Origin: Planctomycetota bacterium
GTDB taxonomy: Bacteria > Planctomycetota > PUPC01 > DSUN01
Assembly (NCBI GenBank): GCA_016872875.1
Contig: VGYW01000017.1
Span: 1 to 38,385 of the forward strand
Direction: 5' to 3'
Length of the DNA: 38,385 bases
Part shown: positions 846 through 33,699 of the stretch, piece after piece
Position numbering within the stretch: the first letter of the stretch is position 1
Layout of the letters: each line of letters begins with the position of its first letter
The notes under the pieces: generated by a model
The model's input: only the letters and a program-made list of their open reading frames with translations
What the model was told of the DNA's origin: nothing
Databases searched by the model: none
Program-made: the position numbers and the translations under genes

Positions 846-879
846 GAGCGCGCAAATCTCGTTCTCGCTCTTGATCCAG

Positions 880-1138
880 AGTCTGGAATGTGTAATCTGG
901 GATCTGGAACCTGGCATACGCGAAGCGGAAGGGCGGGGAGAGAGCTTTAGCCGACACGCAAGTGTCGCTGCGGCGTTACGCCGCGGACGTGCCCTAGCTC
1001 GCTTCACGCCAGCAGAATATTCCAGTGGTCGTTCCGACCACTGAAATATTCGGCGCAGGAGAGCGACGTAAAGCCCTCCCCGCCCCCCGCTTCGCGTATT
1101 CCAGACTCCAGATTCCAGATTACAGATTGCAGACTGCG
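880..1138 (+). ncRNA. Retron msr-msd RNA
   Basis: The 312-bp gap before the RT gene folds into one long structure. Left arm 880-949 pairs with right arm 1069-1138. The outer 39 bp match at 33 positions, and the inner part (GCGAAGCGG...GCTTTA) is nearly perfect. Directly after the left arm comes TTAGC, so G950 is a candidate branching guanosine, as in known retrons. The msr part follows with two small hairpins: 952-967 (GCAA tetraloop) and 970-984. The msd part is dominated by a hairpin at 1016-1050 with 15 of 16 pairs and a TTC loop. Reverse transcription from the a2 junction near 1068 would give a branched msDNA of roughly 70-80 nt. The a1/a2 stem of about 70 bp is very long for a retron. 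Strand is set by the TTAGC motif and the RT direction. Confidence 0.8.
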
Positions 1139-1157
1139 GAGCGGGGAGAGCAGCGCT

Positions 1158-2324
1158 GTGAATGCCTTCTGGATCATCGGCGCCTTGATCGCCGCGTGGC
1201 TCGTGCTGCGGTGGCTCACAGGCCGCGGGACGGCTCGGCCCGCGGGCGACCCCTTCGTGACGAAGCGGAACCCCAAGACCGGCGAACCGGTCCCGCCCGG
1301 CAGCGGCAAGGGGCGCGAAAGGCTCCGCGCCACCGCCACGCACCGCCCCCAGCTCCTCGCCGAGAACGGCCTGCCGAACATCGCGAGGCGCGACGACCTC
1401 GCACGCGCTCTGGGCATCACAAGGGGCACCCTCGACTGGCTGGCGTTCCCCGACGATAGGGAGCAGCCGCCGCACTACTCCGCCTTCGCCGTGCCCAAGC
1501 GCTCCGGCGGCTACCGCGTCCTCTACGCTCCAAAGCCGAAGCTGAAGGCCGCACAGCACTGGATTCGCAAGGAAATCCTGTCGAAGACCTTCGCCGAGGA
1601 CCCCGCCCACGGCTTCGTCGCCGGACGCTCCATCCACACCAACGCCCAGCCCCACGCGGGCAAGGACATCGTGGTGACGCTCGACCTGGACAATTTCTTT
1701 CCGTCCGTCACCTACCGCCGCGTGCGCGGCATCTTCCAATCGCTCGGCTATGGCGAGGAGGTCGCCATCCCGCTGGCCATGCTGTGCACGGTGAAGCCGG
1801 CGGAGAAGGTGCGGGAGTTCGTCGGCGGCCAGCGCCACCGCATGCTCCCGCAGGGCGCCCCTACCAGCCCCGCCCTCGCCAACCTGGCCTGCCGCCACCT
1901 CGACCTGCGGCTCGCCGGCCTGGCCAAGAAGTTCGGCTGCACCTACACCCGCTACGCCGACGACCTGACCTTCAGCGGCGACGACACGTTCAGGCGTTCC
2001 CTCAAGCGCTTCCTCAAGCTCCTCCACCAGATCATCGCAAAGGAGGGCTTCAAGCTCAAGAAGGGCAAGACCCACTTCGCCCGCCGCGGCGCACGCCAGG
2101 AGGTCACTGGCCTCGTGGTGAACGACGGCCCCCGCGTGCCGCGTGCCTACCGCCGTCGGCTCCGCGCCATCCTCCACAACGCCCGCCGGGGTGGCCTTGA
2201 GGCCCAGAACCGCGAGAAGCACCCCCACTTTCGCCAGGCCCTTCGCGGCCGCATCGAGTTCGTCCGCTCAACCCACCCCGACCTCGCCGAGAAGCTGATC
2301 GCCGAACTGAACGCGATCGGTTGA
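1158..2324 (+). CDS. Retron reverse transcriptase with N-terminal membrane segment
   Basis: The protein has 388 residues and starts at GTG 1158, 8 bp after GGGGAG (1144-1149). It shows the retron RT hallmarks: NAQPH (162-166, the NAxxH motif), catalytic Asp residues in LDLDNFF (175-181), PQGAPTSP (231-238), YADD (266-269) and VTG (316-318). The N-terminal block around GITRGTLDWLAFP and the RLAGLAKKFG segment resemble the Myxococcus Mx162-type retron RTs as I know them. Retron RTs prime on the 2'-OH of a G in their own msr RNA and make msDNA; many known retrons act in anti-phage defence. Unusually, residues 4-20 form a hydrophobic helix followed by a basic stretch, suggesting membrane attachment. 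No effector gene is fused to it. The msr-msd gene lies immediately upstream. Confidence 0.93.
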   Translation: MNAFWIIGALIAAWLVLRWLTGRGTARPAGDPFVTKRNPKTGEPVPPGSGKGRERLRATATHRPQLLAENGLPNIARRDDLARALGITRGTLDWLAFPDDREQPPHYSAFAVPKRSGGYRVLYAPKPKLKAAQHWIRKEILSKTFAEDPAHGFVAGRSIHTNAQPHAGKDIVVTLDLDNFFPSVTYRRVRGIFQSLGYGEEVAIPLAMLCTVKPAEKVREFVGGQRHRMLPQGAPTSPALANLACRHLDLRLAGLAKKFGCTYTRYADDLTFSGDDTFRRSLKRFLKLLHQIIAKEGFKLKKGKTHFARRGARQEVTGLVVNDGPRVPRAYRRRLRAILHNARRGGLEAQNREKHPHFRQALRGRIEFVRSTHPDLAEKLIAELNAIG

Positions 2325-2410: not shown

Positions 2411-2914
2411 ATGGGTGATCCGATCGAGCCGTTGTCCTCTGTGTATCTCGAGACCTCCGTCGTGAGCTACGCCACGGCGCGCCTGAGCAGGGACCCTCTG
2501 ATCCGAGGACATCAGGAGTTGACCCGACGCTGGTGGGATGGGTCCCGGCACAGCTATCACCTCTTCACCTCTCCGGCGACGGTGAGCGAAGCCGGCGAGG
2601 GAGACCCTGAGGAAGCAAGGAAGAGGCTGGAGTACCTGGCCGAGGCCGACACGCTTGAGGCGGTTCCACGGGTCCTGGCGCTTGCCGCCGAGCTTAAAAC
2701 GTTTCTCCACATTCCTGAGAAGAAGGGTCCTGATGCCGCTCATCTCGCCTTTGCCGTTCACTATCACATGGTGTACCTTCTGACGTGGAACTGCGCCCAT
2801 CTGGCGAACGAAATGGTCCGCCGCGCTTTGGCCGACTTGTGTCGTGAACGCGAACTCTGGATGCCCATCATCTGCACGCCCGAGGAGATGATTCGACCGG
2901 AAAAGGAGTGCTGA
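2411..2914 (+). CDS. PIN-domain toxin, copy 1 of a paralogous pair
   Basis: I chose ATG 2411 because AAGGA lies 8 bp upstream and the protein then aligns from its N-terminus with the paralogue at 6405. The 167-residue protein begins with the PIN strand YLETSVVSYATARLSRD and carries HQELTRRWW, a GD-PEEA-RL-YL region, a DAAHLAFAV motif with the third acidic residue, LLTWNCAHLAN and PIICTPEEM. This is a recognisable PIN-like toxin family of cyanobacteria and planctomycetes. It is presumed to be an RNase inhibited by the small protein encoded 1 bp downstream. It is the first gene of an operon that continues into a GH36-like glycosidase. Confidence 0.82.
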   Translation: MGDPIEPLSSVYLETSVVSYATARLSRDPLIRGHQELTRRWWDGSRHSYHLFTSPATVSEAGEGDPEEARKRLEYLAEADTLEAVPRVLALAAELKTFLHIPEKKGPDAAHLAFAVHYHMVYLLTWNCAHLANEMVRRALADLCRERELWMPIICTPEEMIRPEKEC

Positions 2915-2915
2915 C

Positions 2916-3113
2916 ATGCGAAAGGATCCCATCCTGGAGGAAGTGTGGCGAGCAAGGGAGAAGTTCGCCGCCGAGTGCGACTATGACCTCCATAAGATGT
3001 TCGAGAAATACCGCGAGATCACTAGGCAATGGAAGGGCAAGGTGGTCGGCGAGGAGGAGGTCCTGGGCAAACGGCGGGTTGCCAAGCGCCCTTTGCGGAG
3101 GACCCGCACGTGA
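2916..3113 (+). CDS. Small antitoxin-like partner, copy 1
   Basis: This 65-residue protein starts 1 bp after the PIN gene stops. It begins MRKDPILEEVWRAREKFAAECDYDLHKMF, which matches the opening of the paralogue at 6910 (PIVEEVRAARQALAAQCGYDPQKML). The family is the usual partner of this PIN group. Its stop codon overlaps the GTG start of the glycosidase (GTGA at 3110-3113), so translation of the two is coupled. The C-terminal tail is strongly basic (RRVAKRPLRRTRT), which is unusual for the part of an antitoxin that normally wraps the toxin. Confidence 0.72.
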   Translation: MRKDPILEEVWRAREKFAAECDYDLHKMFEKYREITRQWKGKVVGEEEVLGKRRVAKRPLRRTRT

Positions 3114-6351: not shown

Positions 6352-6404
6352 AGTCAAATGAGAAGGTGAGCGAGTCCCCGGCTGTTGCGAGGAAGTGCAT
6401 TGTT

Positions 6405-6908
6405 ATGGCCGCCGAAGTGGAATACATCCCGTCCCTGTATCTTGAGACAACAGTCGTGAGCTATCACACATCACGTCCAAGCCGCGATGGCACCATCCGA
6501 AAGCACCAAGAGATCACGCACGAATGGTGGGAGAAGGAACTGGCTCACTACCGCGTGTTCGTTTCGGCGCGAGTCATCTTGGAGGCAAGGCAAGGAGACT
6601 CCGACGAGGCCGAGAGCAGGCTTCTCGCGGTCAGTGAGATAGACTTGCTGGTGGAGCGCGCCGAGATCCCGTCGCTCGCCACACTGCTTCGTAGAGAGCT
6701 TCTTCTTCCGGAGAAAGCCATTGGCGATGCGTTCCACGTCGCTTACCCGATCTCATGCGAACTGGATTACCTTCTCACTTGGAACTGCGCGCATCTGGCG
6801 AATCCTCAAACCCAGCGGCGGCTTGCCAACTTGACCCGTCAACATGGGTTCTGGCTGCCGATCATCTGCACCCCCGAGGAAATCGCGAGGTACAGCGAGG
6901 AGATCTGA
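6405..6908 (+). CDS. PIN-domain toxin, copy 2
   Basis: ATG 6405 is preceded by GAGGAAG about 11 bp upstream and gives the same N-terminus as the copy at 2411; a GTG at 6366 is in frame but adds an unconserved extension. The 167-residue protein has YLETTVVSYHTSRPSRD, HQEITHEWW, ARQGDSDEAESRL, DAFHVAYPI, LLTWNCAHLANP and PIICTPEEI, in register with the first copy. It is the predicted RNase toxin of a second TA pair. It lies 3.3 kb from its paralogue and again heads an operon ending in a glycosidase gene. Confidence 0.82.
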   Translation: MAAEVEYIPSLYLETTVVSYHTSRPSRDGTIRKHQEITHEWWEKELAHYRVFVSARVILEARQGDSDEAESRLLAVSEIDLLVERAEIPSLATLLRRELLLPEKAIGDAFHVAYPISCELDYLLTWNCAHLANPQTQRRLANLTRQHGFWLPIICTPEEIARYSEEI

Positions 6909-6909
6909 C

Positions 6910-7092
6910 ATGTGGAAAGCCCCGATTGTCGAGGAAGTTCGTGCGGCACGCCAGGCGCTTGCCGCACAGTGTGGCTATGACCCCCAGAAGATGCTCGAGC
7001 AGGACCGCGAGGTCGTCAAGAGCTGGAAGGGAAGGGTCGTCACCAAGGAGGACCTGGCAAGGCGGCACCGAACTGCCGCAAGGAAAGCATAG
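6910..7092 (+). CDS. Small antitoxin-like partner, copy 2
   Basis: The ATG at 6910 lies 1 bp after the PIN stop, the same spacing as in copy 1. The 60-residue product opens MWKAPIVEEVRAARQALAAQ and shares the CGYD--KML and SWKGRVV segments with the 2916-3113 protein. Its stop codon directly abuts the GTG start of the xylanase-like gene at 7093. The tail is again basic (ARRHRTAARKA). Function is inferred from its pairing with the PIN gene. Confidence 0.72.
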   Translation: MWKAPIVEEVRAARQALAAQCGYDPQKMLEQDREVVKSWKGRVVTKEDLARRHRTAARKA

Positions 7093-10557: not shown

Positions 10558-10764
10558 GAAGTCCCGAAGGGACAGCAGTGGGTAGCCGGCGGCTTCAGCC
10601 GCCGGAACGTGGCACACACATGGCCCAGTCCCGAAGGGACGGCAGATGCCCACGTGAGGGGGACCCGCTACACGTTTCTGTCGTCCCTTCGGGACTTCTC
10701 CACTTCTGGCGCAGGGGTCCGGCGGCTGAAGCCGCCGGCAACCTACTACGCTCCCTTCGGGAGC
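10558..10764 (+). repeat. 207-bp palindromic dispersed element, copy 1
   Basis: The element contains six perfect small palindromes in order: GTCCCGAAGGGAC, CCGGCGGCTTCAGCCGCCGG, GTCCCGAAGGGAC, GTCCCTTCGGGAC, CCGGCGGCTGAAGCCGCCGG and GCTCCCTTCGGGAGC. The first half is roughly the reverse complement of the second, so the whole can fold into a branched hairpin. The reverse complement of 25304-25511 aligns along its full length. It fills the gap between two minus-strand genes and contains no credible gene. Confidence 0.92.
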
Positions 10765-13006: not shown

Positions 13007-13025
13007 CCAATGCCTCAGGCATTGG
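13007..13025 (-). terminator. Possible terminator overlapping the stop of the HEAT-like gene
   Basis: The perfect 8-bp stem CCAATGCC/GGCATTGG has a 3-nt loop that contains the stop codon of the minus-strand gene. A short T-run follows about 10 nt further along the minus strand. Confidence 0.35.
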
Positions 13026-13887
13026 GGGGGTGGGCGTGGGGGCGGCTGGGGGCCTTAGGCGCCGGCGTGTGGGTTCCGCGCGAGCCGGGAGGGGGAGCCG
13101 CCGGCGCATCGGCCTGGACCGCGGCGCGCTTGGTCCGAATCTGCGCAATGGCCTTTGCGGCCGCGGCCGAGATCACCTGGGTGGAGTGGTCCAGCATGTG
13201 GCCGAGGAAGCGCGTGGCGTGCTCGGGGTCCGCCTCGGCCATCAAGTGCACGACGACTGCCGGGTCGCCGCGCTCGAAGCTGAACGAGTGATACCGCAGG
13301 CGCCGGCGGCCATGCGCGATCTCGTGCAGCTTCGTCAGCTTCTCGGGGTCGCGCAGCGACCTCAGTTCCTGAACCGCCCACCGCCGGATCACCCCGTGCG
13401 GGTCCTCTTCGCGGGTGAGGAAGTAGCTCTCGACCAGGCGCTCGACGAGTTCCGGGTACTCGACCCGCGCGAGGCCTCGGACGGCCGCGGTGCGGACGTG
13501 GAGCGGCGTGCGCGCGCTCTTGACGACCTCGACGAAGCTGCCGACGTGGCGATGGTGGACGACCCCCGCGAGGGCAGCGATCGCCGCCTCGCGCACGCTG
13601 TCCGGCTGGTGCTCCGAGAGGATTGCCTCGTTGAGGGCCTTGAGGACGCGCTCGTCGTTGCAGCGCTTGTGGATGGCCGCCAAGGCCGCGGCCACCTGCA
13701 CCCGCAGCTCCTCTGGGCCGTGTGCCAGCGCCAGGCACAGGGAGTGAACGCACCGCGTGGTGCCGAGCTTCTCGAGGTCACGGACCGCGGCCAGGGCCTC
13801 CGCGGGCCGTCCCTGGCCGTCCGCCGCGGACTCGATCCTGCGAACGGCTCGTCCCTCTTTCCACCGGTTCAGCAGCGCCCGTATCAT
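13015..13887 (-). CDS. HEAT-repeat-like protein with Pro/Ala-rich tail
   Basis: ATG 13887 (MIRALLNRWKEGRAVRRIES) is the best start; GAGGG lies 7 bp upstream, while upstream in-frame options are TTG or GTG without a good site. The 290-residue protein consists of about six helical pairs. Recurring patterns such as ELRVQVAAALAAIHKRCND, SVREAAIAALAGVV and HVRTAAVRGLARVEYPELVERL are typical of HEAT/PBS-lyase-type repeats used in protein binding. The last 35 residues are Pro/Ala-rich and look disordered. There is no signal peptide or enzyme motif. It lies downstream of the fmdB-like gene but beyond a strong terminator, so it is probably separately transcribed. Confidence 0.72.
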   Translation of the reverse strand: MIRALLNRWKEGRAVRRIESAADGQGRPAEALAAVRDLEKLGTTRCVHSLCLALAHGPEELRVQVAAALAAIHKRCNDERVLKALNEAILSEHQPDSVREAAIAALAGVVHHRHVGSFVEVVKSARTPLHVRTAAVRGLARVEYPELVERLVESYFLTREEDPHGVIRRWAVQELRSLRDPEKLTKLHEIAHGRRRLRYHSFSFERGDPAVVVHLMAEADPEHATRFLGHMLDHSTQVISAAAAKAIAQIRTKRAAVQADAPAAPPPGSRGTHTPAPKAPSRPHAHPPNA

Positions 13888-13959
13888 CCCTCGGCCCTCG
13901 TCGGAGCCTTCCGGCCCACTCACTACTTGTAGCAAATCCCGGCGGCTTCGTCAAGGGCC

Positions 13960-25303: not shown

Positions 25304-25511
25304 GCTCCCAAAGGGAGCATAGTGGTTAGCCGGCGGCTTCAGCCGCCGGACTCAGGCCCCAAAACCAGCGAAGTCCCGAAGGGACGGCAGAAACGGGGTG
25401 CGGAGCGGCTTGCCGCGGGGGCTCTGCCGTCCCTTCGGGACTGGGCCGTGTGTGCGCCGCGATCCGGCGGCTGAAGCCGCCGGCTAAACACTGGCGTCCC
25501 TTCGGGACGGC
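25304..25511 (-). repeat. 208-bp palindromic dispersed element, copy 2
   Basis: This is the reverse-oriented homologue of 10558-10764. It has the same order of six palindromes and nearly the same length, with matching spacers such as GTGTTTAGCC-GGCGG and ACACAC-GGCCCAGTCCCG on the minus strand. Its bounds are GCTCCCAAAGGGAGC (25304-25318) and GTCCCTTCGGGACGG (to 25511). It has been captured as the 3' coding end of the aspartyl-protease-like gene. Confidence 0.92.
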
Positions 25512-25926: not shown

Positions 25927-28900
25927 TCACGGAGTGGATTGCGGCAGGAAGGCGATGGAGGTCTGGAGGGGGTAGCCGCAGATGCAGCCGGAGGCGGCCT
26001 CGGGGACCAGGACGAGGCCGCCCGCGGGGATGATGTTGACCCAGCAGCCGGGGCGGACGACGGTGGCGAGGTCGGTGTGCTCGCCGGTCTTGAGGTCGAA
26101 CATTCTGGCGTTGGAGTAGCGGCTGAAGGCGCAGCGGGCCGAGGCGGTGATGGTGCCGCAGGTGGGGCTCTTCTGCCACTTCCACACGGGCGCCGGCTCG
26201 CCGGTCCGCAGGCGGCAGGCGAAGCCCGTATTGTAGATGACGTCGCCGACGATGGCCGAGTGCTGCACCTGCTCGGCGTGCGGCCCCTGGAGGATGTTGT
26301 CGGGCACTGGGGTCTGGGTGTTCCGCCAGAGGAGGGCGCCGTTCGCGGCGTCGAAGGCCGCAAGGTCGTAGCGCACCCGCCGTTGCTTCTCGATCAGCAC
26401 GTTCTTCGTTCCAGTGATCAGCAGAGTCTCCTGGGCATAGCTGAGGTAGATGCAGTGCTGGAGCTGTTCGAGTGCGGCGGGCTTGGACCAGAGGGGCTTG
26501 CCGGAGCGGAGGTCGAGAGCGACCAGGTTTGCCCCCTTGCCCAGGAGAGCGTCGAGGCGGACGCGGCCGTCGGCCGCGTCGCGGGTCTCGGGGTTGGCGC
26601 TCTCGACGAAGTAGAGCCGTCCCCCGCCGGCGGCGAGGGTGGGGTTGATGATGACGCCCTGGGTCGGCGCGGGCGCATAGTCCCACAGCTTCTTGCCGCT
26701 CTGGCGGTCGAGGGCAAAGATGCTGTCGCTGCACACGACCGGCATGCGGTCGCGCCAGATGAGCACCTCAGTATCGAGGGTCTGGAAGCGATAGGACGCG
26801 AGGGGCTTGGTGTCGCTGCCGAGGAGGAGGTCGTCCACAGCGGCGACGTAGCCCCACTCGGTCTTGCACGTTGCAGTGAACTTCGCACGCCCGGTCTTCG
26901 CATCGAGGGCGAGGCATTTCGCTGCGGCGGCCACGTAGAGGCAGTCTGCGGTGGCGGCCAGGTTCCCGCAGTTTTTCAGCGCGCCCAGCCGAATGGAGTC
27001 GGGCACCTCGCGCTCCCAGAGCGCCGTGCCGTTGTACGCGTCGAGGGCCGCGATGTAGTTGTCGCCCGTGACGAACAGGCGTCCCGCGGCGTAGACGGGG
27101 CCGCTGGTCTTGTCGTGGCGGTCGGGCATGCGGCGTGGGCCGGGCCGCCCGAACCACTGGACTGAGGCGGGGCCTGGCGCGAGCGTGTCGCCGCTGCACG
27201 CGCTGTTGGCGGGGTCGGCGTAGAGGTGGCTCCACTCGCCCGCCCCTGGCAGCGGCCCTCGACGCGCCGAGCCCGTCCAGATGCCATCGCGGTCCTTTTC
27301 CACCTTCCAGCCTGGGATCGCCTCGGCGCCCCACGCGTCCGCCGCGTTTGGAGGGAGGAAGAAGATGACGGTGCCACCGGACGGCCGCAGGACGCGCCAG
27401 ACGTCGGCTGCGGGCGGCAGGGTCGTCGCCTCTGCCGAGGCGACGACGTTGGCGAAGTACGGCTGGTAACGCACGGTTTCGAGCGTGCCGCAATGGACGC
27501 TGACGCGAGAGCCATGGAGGCCGGCCTGTCGGAGACGCTTTCGGGCGGCCTCTGCCTTGGCGGGGTCGCGCTCAAGCACGACCACCTGGAAGCGCGAGCG
27601 CTTGGCAATCTCGCAAGGCAGGCTGCCATCGCCCGCTCCAAGGAGGAGGCAATAGCCCTGGTCGCCATCGGCGGCCCTGACGATCTTCTCGGCCAACTGC
27701 TTGGGGAGCTTTCCCGCCTCGTCGTCCGGGTAGGGCAGGGGAGACGCTTCTTCTACCGCCTTCAGAGCCTTCGCGCCGGGCGCGAAGCAGTGGACCGCGC
27801 CGCTGTCGGTGCTCACGAAGAGGCGGGAGCCGGCCACGGCGAGGCCGTGCGCCCTGCCGGAAACGACGCCTGTCCAGACGGCCTTGCCGTCCGCCGCGCC
27901 GTAGGCGACCACGCGGTCCTCGCCCCCCGCGAAGAGCACATCCCCCGCCAGGATCAGCTCGTGGGGGTTGCTGCACGACACGTCCCACTTCAGATACGCC
28001 TTGCGTTCGCCGTCGAGTTCCTCGAGACGCTTCTGCTCGTCAGGCGTCCTGGCCTTCTTGGCTCGGAGGCGGCCTGCCTCGATGTAGAGTCCCAGGTCAA
28101 TGGCTCGGAGGCGGTCCCTCGTGAGGACGTATGCCGTCGGCCCCTCGACAACCAGGCGCAGGCCGGGGAGCGACGCCACCCTCTCCCGCCCGTCGGCCGT
28201 CGAGAAGAGGAGCAACCCGTCCTCCCCGCTGCTGTGGACGAGAAGCGTGTCGGCCCGGAGCGCGAAGGTGCCGCCGGCCTTGCCGCCGAAGCCGCCGGGG
28301 ATGCTTCCGAGGTCCTTGCCGTCGCTGCGGTCGTAGACCTGCGGCGCCGTGCGGCCAGTGGGCACGAACAGCCGAGTCGGCGAAACGAGCAGGTGGCCCT
28401 CAGGCGTGACCTTAAGCGGCTGCTTCCAGAGCTGCTTGCCATCCTTCGAGTCAAGCGCCACCAGGTAAGTGCCGTGGTCCGGGAAGAGGCCGGCGGCGAA
28501 GTGGACGACCCCGCCCTCGGCCGCGACGCCGCTGCGGATTGGCCAGAGGGAGATCATCCTGCCGTTGCCGGGCAGGCGGCGGTCCTCAGGCCCGGCCCGG
28601 TGGCGCCAGAGGAGCGTGCCGTCGTCGGCCTTCAGGCAATAGAGGCAGCCGTCGTCGGAGCCGACATAGACCCGGCCGTCAGCGACGGTCGGGGCGAGCC
28701 GCACAGGGCCTTCGGTGGTGAAAGCCCAGAGGAGCCCGCCGGTCCGTGCGTCGAGGCAATAGACCGTATCGTCGCCCGACGAGCCGAAGAAGACCCGCCC
28801 GCCGGCCACGGCCAGTTGGGGTGCCCAGTCGTAGGAGAGGGTGGGAGCCATCCAGGCGAGGCGGTGCCAGACGTCCTGCTTCGCGGGCGATTCGGGCCAG

Positions 28901-29097
28901 GCAGGGCTGGGGGGGACGGAAGGCTGACGAACCCAGGCCTCTTCCAGGGGGAGGGGAAGTGATTCCGCGGTCGAACCGTTGCGGGCATGGTCGCCACGAT
29001 ACGTCGGCCAATCGGCGGCGAACGCCGGGAGCGCGGCGAGGAGCAGGCTCACTATACAGGCGTGGTCACGATGCCGCGGGCTTGACGAAGAACTCAT
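25927..29097 (-). CDS. Exported PQQ-like propeller protein with internal methyltransferase-like domain
   Basis: The 1056-residue protein begins with a signal segment (CIVSLLLAALPAFAA) and WPTYRGDHARNGST, the usual opening of PQQ/BamB-like propellers. Blades with -G-V-FGSSDDTVYCLDARTGGLLW-F pattern occur on both sides of an inserted Rossmann segment. The insert, at about residues 470-610, has CLLLGAGDGSLPCEIA, VVVLERDPAKAEAARKRL, VSVHCGTLE and VWRVLRPSGGTVIFFLPP, the order seen in SAM-dependent methyltransferases. A methyltransferase fold in an exported protein is odd, because SAM is cytoplasmic; the insert may bind another ligand. The start overlaps the end of the aspartate kinase gene by 32 bp. 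The aspartyl-protease-like gene follows 12 bp after its stop. Confidence 0.82.
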   Translation of the reverse strand: MSSSSSPRHRDHACIVSLLLAALPAFAADWPTYRGDHARNGSTAESLPLPLEEAWVRQPSVPPSPAWPESPAKQDVWHRLAWMAPTLSYDWAPQLAVAGGRVFFGSSGDDTVYCLDARTGGLLWAFTTEGPVRLAPTVADGRVYVGSDDGCLYCLKADDGTLLWRHRAGPEDRRLPGNGRMISLWPIRSGVAAEGGVVHFAAGLFPDHGTYLVALDSKDGKQLWKQPLKVTPEGHLLVSPTRLFVPTGRTAPQVYDRSDGKDLGSIPGGFGGKAGGTFALRADTLLVHSSGEDGLLLFSTADGRERVASLPGLRLVVEGPTAYVLTRDRLRAIDLGLYIEAGRLRAKKARTPDEQKRLEELDGERKAYLKWDVSCSNPHELILAGDVLFAGGEDRVVAYGAADGKAVWTGVVSGRAHGLAVAGSRLFVSTDSGAVHCFAPGAKALKAVEEASPLPYPDDEAGKLPKQLAEKIVRAADGDQGYCLLLGAGDGSLPCEIAKRSRFQVVVLERDPAKAEAARKRLRQAGLHGSRVSVHCGTLETVRYQPYFANVVASAEATTLPPAADVWRVLRPSGGTVIFFLPPNAADAWGAEAIPGWKVEKDRDGIWTGSARRGPLPGAGEWSHLYADPANSACSGDTLAPGPASVQWFGRPGPRRMPDRHDKTSGPVYAAGRLFVTGDNYIAALDAYNGTALWEREVPDSIRLGALKNCGNLAATADCLYVAAAAKCLALDAKTGRAKFTATCKTEWGYVAAVDDLLLGSDTKPLASYRFQTLDTEVLIWRDRMPVVCSDSIFALDRQSGKKLWDYAPAPTQGVIINPTLAAGGGRLYFVESANPETRDAADGRVRLDALLGKGANLVALDLRSGKPLWSKPAALEQLQHCIYLSYAQETLLITGTKNVLIEKQRRVRYDLAAFDAANGALLWRNTQTPVPDNILQGPHAEQVQHSAIVGDVIYNTGFACRLRTGEPAPVWKWQKSPTCGTITASARCAFSRYSNARMFDLKTGEHTDLATVVRPGCWVNIIPAGGLVLVPEAASGCICGYPLQTSIAFLPQSTP

Positions 29098-30430
29098 GGT
29101 AGAGGGCCCTCACGGCGTCGTGGGCGTCGGCAGCCTTGACGCCGAACATCATGGAGACCTCGGAGAAGCCCTGGTTGATCATCTCGATGTTGACGCCTGC
29201 GCGAGCGAAGGCAGCAGTGGCGCGGGCGGCAATGCCCACCGTGTGCTGCATCCCTTCGCCCACGATCATCACGAGGGCCAGGCCCCGCTCCACGCTCACG
29301 TCGTCCACCGCCAGGTCCTTGCGAATCCGCTCGACCACGCGGGCCTCCGTTGTGGTGTCGAGGAACTTCTCCCGCAGGATGACCGAGATGTTGTCTATCC
29401 CGGTCGGGCAGTGCTCGAAGGGGATGCGCTCGTCCTCGAGAATCTGGAGCAGTCGGCGCCCGAAGCCCACCTCGCGGTTCATCAGGTACTTGCTCATGTA
29501 GATCGAACAGAAGCCGGCGTCGCAGGCGATGCCTGTGACCGCGCTGGAGGCCAGCATCCGCTCCGGGACGATCATCGTGCCGGGCGCGGAGGGGTTGTTC
29601 GTGTTCCTGATGCAAACCGGGATGCCGGCGTGGTAGGCCGGCTCCAGGGCCTCCTCGTGGAACACGCTGAAGCCGGCGTAGGAGAGCTCGCGCATCTCGC
29701 GGTAGGTTATCTCCGGGATGGGGCAGGGGTTCTGAATGATGCTCGGGCTCGCCGCGAACACCGAGTCAACGTCTGTGAAGTTCTCGTACAGCTCGGCCCT
29801 CACGCCCGCTGCGACCACGGAGCCCGTGATGTCTGAGCCGCCGCGCGAGAAAGTGACCACCTCCCCCTTCGGCGAGTAGCCGAAGAAGCCGGGAAACACG
29901 GTCACGCCCGTCCGCCGGCGGAGCTTCCGCAGGTTGCCGTACGATTCGGGCAGCACGCGCGCGTTGCCGAACTCCGCGCTCACCAGCAGTCCGGCCTCCT
30001 TCGGGCTGACGTAGCTCGCCTTGACCCCGAGGCTCCGGAGGTACTCGGCAAAGAGCTTCGCACAGTTGTCCTCCCCCGCCGCCTTCACCGTATCAACGTA
30101 GCGCCCGCGATGGCTCTTGTCGCCAGCCAGGCGGGCATTGAGATCGCTGGTCACGGTCTTGCCGATGGCGTCCGAAAGCCCGAGCCCCTCGGCGATGCCG
30201 GCATAGCGGTCGGCCACGGCGCGGACCTCCGCCTCCGCCGACCCGAACGCCAGGTAGTGGTCGGCGCAGGCGATCAGCATGTCCGTCACCTTCGTGTCCG
30301 TCTTGTGCCGCTTCCCCGGCGCCGAGACCACGATCACCCTCCGCTCGGGGTCCGAGGCCACGATTGCCCCGACCTTCTTGAACTGCTCGGCCGAGGCCAG
30401 CGACGTGCCGCCAAACTTTGACACCTTCAT
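29066..30430 (-). CDS. lysC: Aspartate kinase
   Basis: ATG 30430 gives MKVSKFGGTSLASAEQFKKV, the canonical start of aspartokinases; AGGAG lies 12 bp upstream. The 454-residue enzyme phosphorylates L-aspartate, the first step to Lys, Met, Thr and diaminopimelate. The kinase half includes KFGGTS, VTVFPGFFG, SRGGSDITGS and ELYENFTDVDSVFAASP. Two ACT-type regulatory regions follow (IDNISVILREKF and LALVMIVGEGMQHTVGIAARATAAFARAGVNIEMINQG). It has the length of a monofunctional enzyme; no homoserine dehydrogenase part is fused. Feedback control by Lys or Thr through the ACT domains is expected. It has a promoter at 30479-30506 and is divergent from the large kinase. Confidence 0.95.
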   Translation of the reverse strand: MKVSKFGGTSLASAEQFKKVGAIVASDPERRVIVVSAPGKRHKTDTKVTDMLIACADHYLAFGSAEAEVRAVADRYAGIAEGLGLSDAIGKTVTSDLNARLAGDKSHRGRYVDTVKAAGEDNCAKLFAEYLRSLGVKASYVSPKEAGLLVSAEFGNARVLPESYGNLRKLRRRTGVTVFPGFFGYSPKGEVVTFSRGGSDITGSVVAAGVRAELYENFTDVDSVFAASPSIIQNPCPIPEITYREMRELSYAGFSVFHEEALEPAYHAGIPVCIRNTNNPSAPGTMIVPERMLASSAVTGIACDAGFCSIYMSKYLMNREVGFGRRLLQILEDERIPFEHCPTGIDNISVILREKFLDTTTEARVVERIRKDLAVDDVSVERGLALVMIVGEGMQHTVGIAARATAAFARAGVNIEMINQGFSEVSMMFGVKAADAHDAVRALYHEFFVKPAAS

Positions 30431-30478
30431 GCGGGCGTATTGCTCCTGAAGACCCTTGGAAGAACCACCATCGCCCAT

Positions 30479-30506
30479 ATTATAGACGGAACGCTGCCAG
30501 ACACAA
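30479..30506 (-). promoter_or_regulatory. Promoter of the aspartate kinase gene
   Basis: On the minus strand TTGTGT (30506-30501) is followed after 16 bp by a perfect TATAAT (30484-30479). It is back to back with the plus-strand promoter at 30514-30542; the two -35 boxes are 7 bp apart. Confidence 0.65.
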
Positions 30507-30513
30507 GCGCCCC

Positions 30514-30542
30514 TTGACGCCACGCGGCCCAATGTGTAGAAT
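30514..30542 (+). promoter_or_regulatory. Promoter of the large Ser/Thr kinase gene
   Basis: TTGACG (30514-30519) is followed after 17 bp by TAGAAT (30537-30542). The 5' leader to the ATG at 30661 would carry the hairpin repeat at 30556-30620. Confidence 0.75.
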
Positions 30543-30555
30543 CCCCTGCTGTTGC

Positions 30556-30620
30556 GGGATGAATGGATGGGTGGATGGGTGTCAGACAATCATCCATTCG
30601 TCCATCCATCCAATCATCCC
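30556..30620. repeat. Long inverted-unit hairpin element (GGATGGGT units) in a 5' leader
   Basis: Left arm 30556-30581 repeats GGATGAAT/GGATGGGT. Right arm 30590-30620 is the reverse complement (CATCCATTCGTCCATCC...). The core is 8 bp. It lies between the promoter and the start codon of the large kinase, so it would form a strong hairpin in the mRNA leader. Confidence 0.85.
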
Positions 30621-30660
30621 CTTTGGTTGCCGCGGTGCCCGCCTCATCACGGAAGCCGCC

Positions 30661-33600
30661 ATGCCCGACCCGCGCGAAAGCCTTTGCTCCGGCTGCGGGA
30701 CCACCCTCACGCTCGCCCCCGACGCCAGGGCGACCTGCCCGAAGTGCGGCCTGGACACCCGCATCCCAGGCACCCACGACCCCACGCCGCCCCTCGCCCA
30801 GCCTACCGCCACGCTGCCCGACGGCGCGGCCCCGACTGTCGCGCTCGCCGATGCGCCCGCAGGGCGGCCGGCCCCCGCGCCCGAGCGCACGGGCGAACTC
30901 TCCCTCCCGCGCTACGAGGAGCAGGAGGTCATCGGCCACGGAGGAATGGGCGAGGTCGTCCTCTGCGTCGACCGCGACATCCACCGCCAGATCGCCCTCA
31001 AGCGCATGCGTGAGACGCCCGACGCCAAGCCCTCCGACCGCGCGCGCTTCGTCGAGGAGGCCCAGGTCACTGGCCAGCTCGAACACCCGAACATCGTGCC
31101 CATCTACGAGCTCTCGCGCGACCCCGAGGGCGGCGTCTACTACACGATGAAGCTGGTCCGCGGAAGATCGCTGGCTGAGATTCTGAAGGACATCAAGGAC
31201 CACAGGGACCACAAGGACGACAGGGGCGCTCGTGACAGTGCTGGTGGCACAGGCGTCCCGCCTGTGGGCCAAAGGCAAGATGCCTGTGCCACCAAGGAAA
31301 TCTCTCTCGGCGACCTGCTACAGATGTTCCTGAAGGTCTGCGACGGCGTGGCCTTCGCCCACTCGCGCGGCGTCATCCACCGCGACCTCAAGCCCGCGAA
31401 CATCATGGTCGGCGACTATGGCGAGGTTCTTGTGATGGATTGGGGCCTGGCGCGCATCCTCAGACCAGACGACAGACGACAGATGACAGATGACAGCGGC
31501 CAGAGGGTGGAAAGTCACGCGTCACGCGTCACGCGTCAGGAATCACCCCCTCAAATCGCCTCCGACCGCCAGGAGATGTCCGCCCTCGAAACCCTCGCCG
31601 GCTCTATGCTCGGCACCCCGGCCTACATGTCGCCCGAGCAGGCGAAGGGGGAGTTGGACAAGATTGACGCCCGCTCCGACCTCTGGTCGCTGGGCGCGAT
31701 ACTCTACGAAATCTTGACGTTGGAGCGCGCCTTCGCGGGCGAGACCACCTACGCCATCCTTGCCAGCGTCCTGAAAGGCAACATCGTCCCGCCCGAGCAG
31801 CGCGCCCCAAGCCGCAACGTCCCGCGCGAACTCTCGGCCATTGTCATGAAATGCCTCAGCCGCACTCGTGCCTGCCGCTATGCCTCTGTCCTCGACCTCA
31901 AGCGCGACCTCACCCTCTTCCTCGAAGGCCGCAGCGTCTCGGCGGCGCCCGACACCTTTGCCCAGGCTTTTGTGAAACTCATCAAGCGCAACAAAGCCGT
32001 CAGTGCGGCCATTGCCCTCGCCCTATCCGTCCTATCCGTCCTATCCGTCCTATTCGTCACTCGCCTGGCGCGCGAACGAGATAGGGCCGTCGCAAGTGAG
32101 GGCCGCGCCATCACCAACGAGAAGGCAGCCATCACCGCCCGCGAGAAACAAGTCAAGGATGCCCTCAAGGCCTCGGAAGTGCTGGCCTACCAGGCCATCC
32201 GCGCGGCGGAGGAGGGGCGGTTCACCGAGGCGGAGGCCCGGGCCGAGGCGGCTAGGATTTTCCTTCCCGACGGCCCCTGGGGCTACTACGCCCTTGCCCA
32301 GATCGCCATGCAGCGGCAGGACAAGGCGACGGCGCGCAAGCAACTCGACGAGGCCCTTCGCCGCGACCCCACGCACGAGCAATCGCGGGCCGCCCTCGCC
32401 CAGCTCCTCGGGGCAGCCGGTGAAGCCGACAAGCTGAGAGCTCTTGTGGCGAGCGCCGGCAAGGCCGGGGATTGGCGCGCCCTGCTCGCCGCAGCCGACG
32501 CATTGGTCGCGGCAGGCGGCTCTGAGGGACTCGCGGCCTACGAGAATGCCCTTGCCCTCATGGAGAAGGACCCCACGGTCGAGCGAAAGGTCCTCGATGA
32601 GAAGAAGGATACGCACTTCTACGTGCGGGCAAAGGCCCTGTCTGCGGGCTTCTACGACTCCATCCGCAGGCTCCCGGTCGAGGAGCAGCGGCGGCGCATC
32701 GCCGCCAAGTTCAGCGAAATCCACGGCACCCCAATCAACCCGACATTCACAGTTGACAAGGGGGCAATCGTGGGCTTGTCCCTCCAGCAGCAGCCTGTCC
32801 GGTCCCTTGAGCCGCTCAGGGGCATGCCCCTGCGGTACCTTAACTGCGCAGGCACCCATGTGGGTGACCTACGAGCACTTAGAGGCATGCCGCTCGAGAC
32901 TCTTTTTTGTGGAGGACCTGTTAACGTTCTCGCCGGCAAGATCGCTGACCTAGCCCCACTAGAAGGAATGCCTTTGGAAGAACTAATGGTGGCCGTTTGC
33001 CAAGTAGAAGATATAAGGCCCTTGAAAGGACTACCCCTGGCTAGGCTGCGTTTGGAGTTCCTGCCTGTTAGGGACCTGACGCCCTTGAGGGGGATGCGAC
33101 TTGAGACCCTAAGTGTCAGGTACTGCCGGCGTATAAGGCACCTGGATCCTCTTCAAGGAATGCCCCTCACCACACTGGACTGTGACTCGACGGGCGTGGC
33201 CGACCTCGGCCCACTCAAGGGCATGCGACTCAGAAGCTTGAACTGTGGTTCGACGGGCGTGGCCGATCTCCGCGCACTCAAGGGCATGCCACTCAGAAGC
33301 TTGAACTGTGGTTCGACGCGGGTGAGTGACCTGGACCCGCTAAGGGGAATGACATTGACGACCTTGGACTGCTCGGGTACCAGTGTGAGCGACCTTAGCC
33401 CTTTGCGAGGGATACCCCTGACTTGCCTGGAGTGCGAAGGGGCTCCATTGAAGGACCTGCTCCCGCTGAAGGGCATGCCTCTGACAACCCTGCACTGCGC
33501 AACTCCCGGAGTGGCCGACCTGTGCCCACTCGACGGGATGAAGTTGGAAACGCTCTCTTTTTCCCCCAATAGAATCACGAAAGGTCTTGACCTGATAAGG

Positions 33601-33699
33601 GCCATGAAGACCCTGAGACGCATAGGCCGCCAACGCCACTACCTGCACGGAGCGGATGATTTCTGGAAGAGATACGACGCGGGGGAGTTCAGCAAGTAG
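30661..33699 (+). CDS. Transmembrane Ser/Thr protein kinase with zinc ribbon and leucine-rich-type repeats
   Basis: The 1012-residue protein from ATG 30661 starts with a zinc ribbon (CSGCG...CPKCG) and a Pro/Ala linker. A Hanks-type kinase domain follows: G-loop GHGGMGEV at 92-99, Lys114, HRDLKPANI with Asp242, DWG at 260 in place of DFG, and GTPAYMSPEQAKGE. A membrane span lies near 447-466. Then come a TPR-like helical region and about eleven 22-24-residue LRR-like repeats (L-GMPL-SLNCGST-V-DL) from about 709 to 990. The end is DFWKRYDAGEFSK. It probably phosphorylates proteins in response to an external or periplasmic signal read by the repeats. Repeat DNA has inserted in frame at about residues 178-214, before the HRD motif, and at 266-300 in the activation loop, so activity could be altered. 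Confidence 0.85.
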   Translation: MPDPRESLCSGCGTTLTLAPDARATCPKCGLDTRIPGTHDPTPPLAQPTATLPDGAAPTVALADAPAGRPAPAPERTGELSLPRYEEQEVIGHGGMGEVVLCVDRDIHRQIALKRMRETPDAKPSDRARFVEEAQVTGQLEHPNIVPIYELSRDPEGGVYYTMKLVRGRSLAEILKDIKDHRDHKDDRGARDSAGGTGVPPVGQRQDACATKEISLGDLLQMFLKVCDGVAFAHSRGVIHRDLKPANIMVGDYGEVLVMDWGLARILRPDDRRQMTDDSGQRVESHASRVTRQESPPQIASDRQEMSALETLAGSMLGTPAYMSPEQAKGELDKIDARSDLWSLGAILYEILTLERAFAGETTYAILASVLKGNIVPPEQRAPSRNVPRELSAIVMKCLSRTRACRYASVLDLKRDLTLFLEGRSVSAAPDTFAQAFVKLIKRNKAVSAAIALALSVLSVLSVLFVTRLARERDRAVASEGRAITNEKAAITAREKQVKDALKASEVLAYQAIRAAEEGRFTEAEARAEAARIFLPDGPWGYYALAQIAMQRQDKATARKQLDEALRRDPTHEQSRAALAQLLGAAGEADKLRALVASAGKAGDWRALLAAADALVAAGGSEGLAAYENALALMEKDPTVERKVLDEKKDTHFYVRAKALSAGFYDSIRRLPVEEQRRRIAAKFSEIHGTPINPTFTVDKGAIVGLSLQQQPVRSLEPLRGMPLRYLNCAGTHVGDLRALRGMPLETLFCGGPVNVLAGKIADLAPLEGMPLEELMVAVCQVEDIRPLKGLPLARLRLEFLPVRDLTPLRGMRLETLSVRYCRRIRHLDPLQGMPLTTLDCDSTGVADLGPLKGMRLRSLNCGSTGVADLRALKGMPLRSLNCGSTRVSDLDPLRGMTLTTLDCSGTSVSDLSPLRGIPLTCLECEGAPLKDLLPLKGMPLTTLHCATPGVADLCPLDGMKLETLSFSPNRITKGLDLIRAMKTLRRIGRQRHYLHGADDFWKRYDAGEFSK
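31195..31297. repeat. Hairpin repeats inserted in the kinase domain
   Basis: GGACCACAGGGACCAC units (31195-31225) match the arm of the element at 18730-18839. A separate hairpin follows, with arms CTGGTGGCACAGGCGTC (31241-31257) and GATGCCTGTGCCACCAAG (31279-31296). They encode a low-complexity stretch between the kinase N-lobe/hinge helix and ISLGDLLQMFLKV. Confidence 0.8.
31460..31545. repeat. Tandem repeats inserted in the kinase activation loop
   Basis: CAGACGACAGACGACAGATGACAG-type units (about 31465-31497) are followed by GTCACGC units (about 31514-31538). They interrupt the stretch between DWGLARIL and TLAGSMLGTPAYMSPE, normally short in this family, and keep the frame. Confidence 0.75.

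Follow-up and report, generated by a model that had tools for sequence, protein, structure and literature searches.

Does the reverse transcriptase (RT) gene near the start of a 38,385-nucleotide stretch of planctomycete DNA (the window, by which we mean this whole stretch) belong to a retron and, if so, what sets it apart from the retrons already described? An earlier note, made from the letters alone, had read the locus as a complete retron with an exceptionally long a1/a2 stem. We consider it likely that the locus is a retron in which a stem core shared with relatives is lengthened by a repeat, and in which the RT is held at the membrane, with no clear known effector found.

The RT gene and its N-terminal segment are placed as follows:

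1158-2324 (+), retron reverse transcriptase, GTG start, 388 amino acids (from profiles, structure matches and alignment)
1164-1220 (+), predicted N-terminal transmembrane helix, RT residues 3-21 (from hydropathy, AlphaFold2 and a codon test)

NAxxH, YADD and VTG make up the motif set of a retron-type RT, and the residues concerned, which the earlier note had picked out, are invariant across a 40-sequence alignment (N162, A163, H166, Y266-A-D-D269 and V316-T-G318). RT_XIII was the top PADLOC RT profile at 432.6 bits, with RT_other at 390.9 and RT_outgroup at 369.9, and the group II intron RT model gave 55 bits, below its cut-off of 300. Retron RTs led the matches to solved structures by both sequence and fold, Ec86 first, the fold list running Ec86, Eco2, Eco7. 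Since both trees described below were built without group II or DGR rows, it is only these profile and fold scores that cover the placement of the enzyme among retron RTs. Against the sole close relative whose DNA was compared (locus L187 in genome G348; RT 84% identical), residues 59-388 bear the mark of purifying selection (dN 0.097, dS 0.40).

The region upstream of this gene can be laid out as an msr-msd RNA between paired ends:

875-920 (+), outer 5' arm, mostly (CCAGATT)n in reverse orientation; pairs with 1096-1140; absent from the L187 5' arm
921-949 (+), a1, inner 5' arm; largely common to L187; ends directly before G950
947-951 (+), TTAGC, with the candidate 2'-5' priming guanosine G950 (from sequence); identical in L187
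952-967 (+), msr hairpin 1, GCAA loop; two-sided change at 6 of 6 pairs and 75% of cells paired in 12 relatives
968-986 (+), msr hairpin 2; 96.9% of cells paired in 12 relatives
999-1066 (+), msd region, its hairpin enclosed by a basal stem (999-1004/1061-1066); 73.1% of cells paired across the 12 relatives
1012-1054 (+), msd hairpin; pairing kept in L187 despite much sequence change
1069-1096 (+), a2, inner 3' arm; copying would start at G1068
1097-1140 (+), outer 3' arm, (CCAGATT)n; present in L187 too

Positions 841-1157 fold at -187.1 kcal/mol, a stability that none of 100 shuffled sequences reached (z = -13.9), as the earlier note's reading of this region would have it. Its further elements were also recovered: TTAGC at the arm junction (947-951, G950 directly after the 5' arm), two msr-like hairpins, and the msd hairpin claimed at 1016-1050, which we place at 1012-1054 with one internal mismatch within 1015-1051. 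The arms close at A949/T1069, so that G950 is the first unpaired base 3' of the 5' arm; the priming-guanosine rule applied to it is taken from PMC6868368. With an msr-msd region flanked by pairing ends and a candidate priming G immediately 3' of the first arm, the upstream RNA has the make-up expected of a retron. No sigma-70-like promoter ahead of the RNA came out of a consensus scan of 600-2500. Separately, 1138-1151, before the RT start, repeats the GCGGGGAGAG of a1 (933-942) and could pair with a2 (1073-1086) in place of a1, as a possible switch.

Between the window and L187 the RNA flanks are identical at 115 of 120 positions, against 154 of 209 fourfold sites in the RT (p = 9e-8), while the msd hairpin keeps 18 of 32 aligned positions and has 8 compensatory pairs, as counted from these two sequences. 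Faster change of the msd hairpin than of fourfold sites was not supported (18/32 versus 154/209, p = 0.057). In an Rfam scan of the window every retron family stayed below its gathering score; a covariance model built from the window and L187 (R1) does match relatives. Run over 72 sources (659 kb), R1 gave 29 matches at E <= 10, four of which are accounted for by the two training sequences, each matched on both of its strands. A further twelve, scoring 44.8 to 15.8 bits, sit on the + strand a short way upstream of RT genes from the group in which no effector gene was found (the effector-less group); 11 of these have E <= 0.34, and the L059 match (E 1.9) falls within the range of chance matches and is counted because of where it lies. 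The RNA core that the earlier note expected to persist in homologous loci is thus kept before the RT in 12 of the 17 loci of this group (as drawn in the quick tree, window and L187 excluded), with no match before the RT in L060, L070, L073, L075 and L174. In these 12 relatives, all outside the model, 88.2% of 570 cells pair, as opposed to 59.1% after shuffling and 38-45% when the partners are slid. Two-sided change is seen at 49 of the 54 pairs. Both figures come from an alignment fitted to R1 and hence biased in its favour.

Besides G348, no relative better than E 1e-95 appeared among the phylum genomes listed in two further draws, whose 21 genomes each were almost all shared with the first draw; a scan of genome contigs with a single RT protein gave no confirmed match, and the exact msr core had no match in viral contigs. 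In the retron RNAs of two other loci, L009 and L053, the msd hairpin is predicted to be very long.

The RT profiles, the fold and the RNA core common to relatives support the assignment of the locus as a retron. By analogy with known retrons, a single transcript from about 870 on would carry the msr-msd and then the RT gene, the arms would pair, G950 would supply the 2'-OH, and reverse transcription would start at G1068 and run back across the msd hairpin to yield a putative 2'-5' branched msDNA of about 70-80 nt.

The shared core would correspond to an a1/a2 stem of about 25-30 pairs, which a heptamer repeat, in opposite orientations on the two sides, would extend to 61. An ungapped search gave 63 nt at 81% complementarity (875-937/1078-1140), and a duplex calculation 61 pairs before any internal loop reached 4 nt, so the "two 70-nt arms" of the earlier note were about right. 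When pairs are counted from the candidate priming G outward, as far as the first loop of at least 4 nt, the window stem exceeds those of all 11 relatives measured, which span 17-26 pairs (L045 26; L187 25; L020 and L077 22; L059 21; L066 and L055 19; L052 and L032 18; L038 and L051 17). PMC6868368 gives the length of retron a1/a2 as about 8-30 bases.

The extra part is itself a repeat. An 18-base repeat pattern has 75 forward and 61 reverse matches in G348 at <=2 mismatches (136 in total, overlapping registers of one array being counted apart), and its reversed control has 0; the (CCAGATT)n arrays, whose dispersal is seen in G348, are spread over many contigs. L187 has the repeat on the right side only, its left arm being without it. 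Because the outer arm is largely a repeat dispersed in G348 that the L187 left arm lacks, the exceptional length is probably a lineage-specific feature; it stands as a measurement and is unfit as the name of the element. Recent copying of the left arm from the right is unsupported by the arm distances: the left arm matches the window right arm at 57 of 69 positions and the L187 right arm at 54 of 67, about equally distant from both, so that no recent matching is seen. Some heptamer arrays elsewhere in G348 (loci L188-L207) adjoin GC-rich palindromes or other heptamer arrays.

Could the long stem have been selected in this lineage because it steadies the RNA or lifts msDNA yield? Its 61 pairs are almost unbroken, and in PMC11754653 editing by engineered Retron-Eco1 improved with a1/a2 stems of 23 and 27 bp. 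Against this stand the dispersal of the extra part's repeat in G348 and its absence from the L187 left arm, the shorter stems of all 11 relatives and the lack of recent matching between the arms, which together make selection for length unlikely. We regard the lengthening as probably tolerated or mildly helpful, and not as the basis of function.

Type XIII retrons (PADLOC RT_XIII, SWIM_XIII, WGR_XIII and HEAT-ARM_XIII) share with the window their best RT profile, a neighbouring tree position and, in two SWIM loci, weak matches to the RNA model. We searched by tblastn, with queries from loci that PADLOC names SWIM_XIII and WGR_XIII, and found a SWIM-type gene in 57 of 96 sequences; neither the 38-kb window nor L187 has a SWIM or WGR gene by this search, and in the window the RT has no adjoining SWIM, WGR or HEAT-ARM partner. 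A PADLOC scan, one by one, of 30 chosen window ORFs besides the RT (a subset) gave no match to SWIM_XIII or WGR_XIII. It did match HEAT-ARM_XIII weakly at 13015-13935 (-), 11 kb away from the RT (25.3 bits, E 5.9e-7), covering positions 1249-1383 of the 1972 in the model; 25927-29097 (-) has a weak mad2 match, and 30418-33699 (+) matches kinase models (PD-T4-6, mad6 and others). The window also has two Acido-Lenti-1 RNAs (RF01687), at 25464-25509 (+) and 10560-10605 (-).

The locus might nonetheless be an ordinary type XIII retron whose SWIM, WGR or HEAT effector is encoded at another site in the genome or dropped out of the assembly. The RT_XIII profile and the HEAT-ARM_XIII match favour this reading, as does the presence of a SWIM_XIII gene somewhere in 4 of 15 effector-less-group genomes (G620-G623); both type XIII controls, G005 and G006, have one. 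On the other hand, SWIM_XIII is missing from the G348 genome and from 10 of the 14 further group genomes that were searched, tblastn finds neither a SWIM nor a WGR gene in the 38 kb, none of the 30 ORFs scanned matches either profile, and the HEAT match spans little of what is a long repeat model. SWIM_XIII is also missing from the L032 and L180 genomes, and in that of L174 it is on another contig. SWIM-type loci gave no R1 match at E < 1, but weak, correctly placed ones between the SWIM gene and the RT in L179 (3075-3201 (-), 16.2 bits, E 1.6) and L181 (671-811 (+), 15.5 bits, E 2.3), both with a similar GC hairpin and L179 with TTAGC too. From these the R1-type RNA may extend into part of type XIII, a point in favour of the ordinary reading, which on balance we hold to be quite unlikely.

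The trees place the window beside type XIII. With near-duplicates removed (107 of 125 rows kept), the quick tree puts the window in a 44-row set without any SWIM locus (SH-aLRT 99), a set that includes one long-branched viral RT. In the careful tree (78 of 125 rows) the effector-less rows are not one clade: those from planctomycetes form a separate branch (93/77) and the window family stands beside a set with SWIM, L024 and myxobacterial rows (85/72), neither split being starred, while the close window family is firm (99/99). As to the likeness to Mx162-type enzymes proposed in the earlier note, two myxobacterial RTs, neither of them Mx162, belong to the window's group in the quick tree and fall outside it in the careful tree.

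Likeness is also found in the effector-less planctomycete retrons (L020, L038, L045, L066, L077 and others), which have the R1 RNA and a hydrophobic N-terminal start, but which differ in having AAG before the loop where the window has TTAG, a stem of 17-26 pairs, and RTs 43-48% identical to that of the window (in the five named loci). Four loci have a conserved, hydrophobic-looking protein after the RT (L020 5330-6199, L038 6192-6935, L045 6043-6768, the same place as L169, and L051 4398-5141), which had no Pfam match in the three scanned; we rejected it as the effector since tblastn found no copy in the other loci searched, including L052, L055, L059, L066 and L077.

The N-terminus of the RT offers another distinction. 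Residues 1-17 have a mean Kyte-Doolittle value of 2.1, and 10 of the 39 other A1 sequences score 2.2-2.8 (P0001, 2, 4, 5, 7-10, 14 and 30), while most of the remainder open with an MGFLDWL-like amphipathic segment; by FWLIVM count, 36 of 40 close relatives have hydrophobic starts. AlphaFold2 predicts a helix at residues 3-21, then low confidence at 24-36 and 45-58, which reads as a linker over about residues 24-58, and then the RT (mean pLDDT 85.5). Residues 2-24 show dN 0.20 and dS 0.65 between the window and L187, which fits a translated segment, although at the protein level they outpace the RT domain (dN 0.20 versus 0.097).

Among the genome-contig loci, a hydrophobic start is found in 12 of 16 effector-less loci against 3 of 50 SWIM loci (p = 1.4e-7; 6 of 72 loci unjudged), the other 47 SWIM loci having a different RT N-terminus by this count. 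The effector-less label of L032, L174 and L180 is drawn from short flanks. Within the count, L040 owes its place to an upstream start and is artefactual, L026 lies inside the SWIM clade and the L055 segment is atypical. As only two independent tree pairs link the hydrophobic start to the missing effector, the association may reflect one or two events.

Judged from sequence, the helix most likely keeps the RT-msDNA complex at the inner membrane, and a family in which an amphipathic helix has given way to a transmembrane one would be in keeping with action at the membrane; alternatively, a hydrophobic N-terminus can serve as a protein contact. The effector would be an unlinked or unrecognised partner, or the membrane-bound complex itself would act. 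A stronger version, in which this is a widespread effector-free retron lineage whose RT helix inserts or clusters when msDNA is disturbed at infection and damages the inner membrane, seems to us decidedly unlikely.

Two readings fare worst. The adjoining PIN-type toxin genes (324-845 and 2411-2914) lie on the RT strand and directly flank the retron, and 324-845 encodes a PIN domain protein, yet neither has a relative in L187 (tblastn, 14 kb), where a TPR protein gene on the opposite strand lies upstream and the gene of a shared NPCBM protein downstream, so that a role for them as retron effectors is highly improbable. Equally remote is a decayed retron that persists as RNA and RT and makes no product, as the want of a clear effector (tblastn; 30 ORFs scanned) might suggest, because the catalytic residues are intact, the RT and RNA flanks are under purifying selection and the msd hairpin is re-paired in L187.

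The NPCBM gene downstream in both window and L187 suggests vertical inheritance of the locus. Among its other neighbours, 134-845 comprises a small ORF and the PIN-domain gene, a VapBC-like pair directly 5' of the retron RNA without an L187 relative. Two further gene pairs, 2411-3113 and 6366-7092, are paralogous, with 46% identity between the proteins and 48% between the small ORFs that follow them; Pfam gave no match for the first protein, and 6366-6908 with two small ORFs had no relative in L187 (tblastn, 14 kb).

With regard to better-known systems, PMC6868368 reports an N-terminal RT extension in myxococcal retrons, which by that description Mx162, Mx65 and Sa163 share with the window, and vertical inheritance for Mx162 and Sa163; it gives the priming motif as CAGC in Mx162 and Sa163 and GAGC in Mx65, compared with TTAGC here. 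Among solved structures that of Ec86 (Eco1) comes nearest in both sequence and fold, at 32% identity over the fold alignment, and its complex with an effector has been solved, whereas no clear effector was found for the window retron. Among the papers listed, few of them subscription ones, none dealt, judged by title and opening lines of the abstract, with planctomycete retrons or with membrane helices in retron RTs. The earlier note's view that retrons of this host group are little described holds in that sense, yet 7828 proteins match the RT at E <= 0.001.

Our best reading is thus a new retron variant beside type XIII, with an RT that is perhaps membrane-tethered and without a clear effector found. 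It cautions that repeats can generate a long predicted a1/a2 stem. It also yields a transferable RNA model, brings in a retron lineage whose relatives in Planctomycetota and Sumerlaeota are known at the DNA level, and raises the idea that some retron RTs may be membrane-bound.
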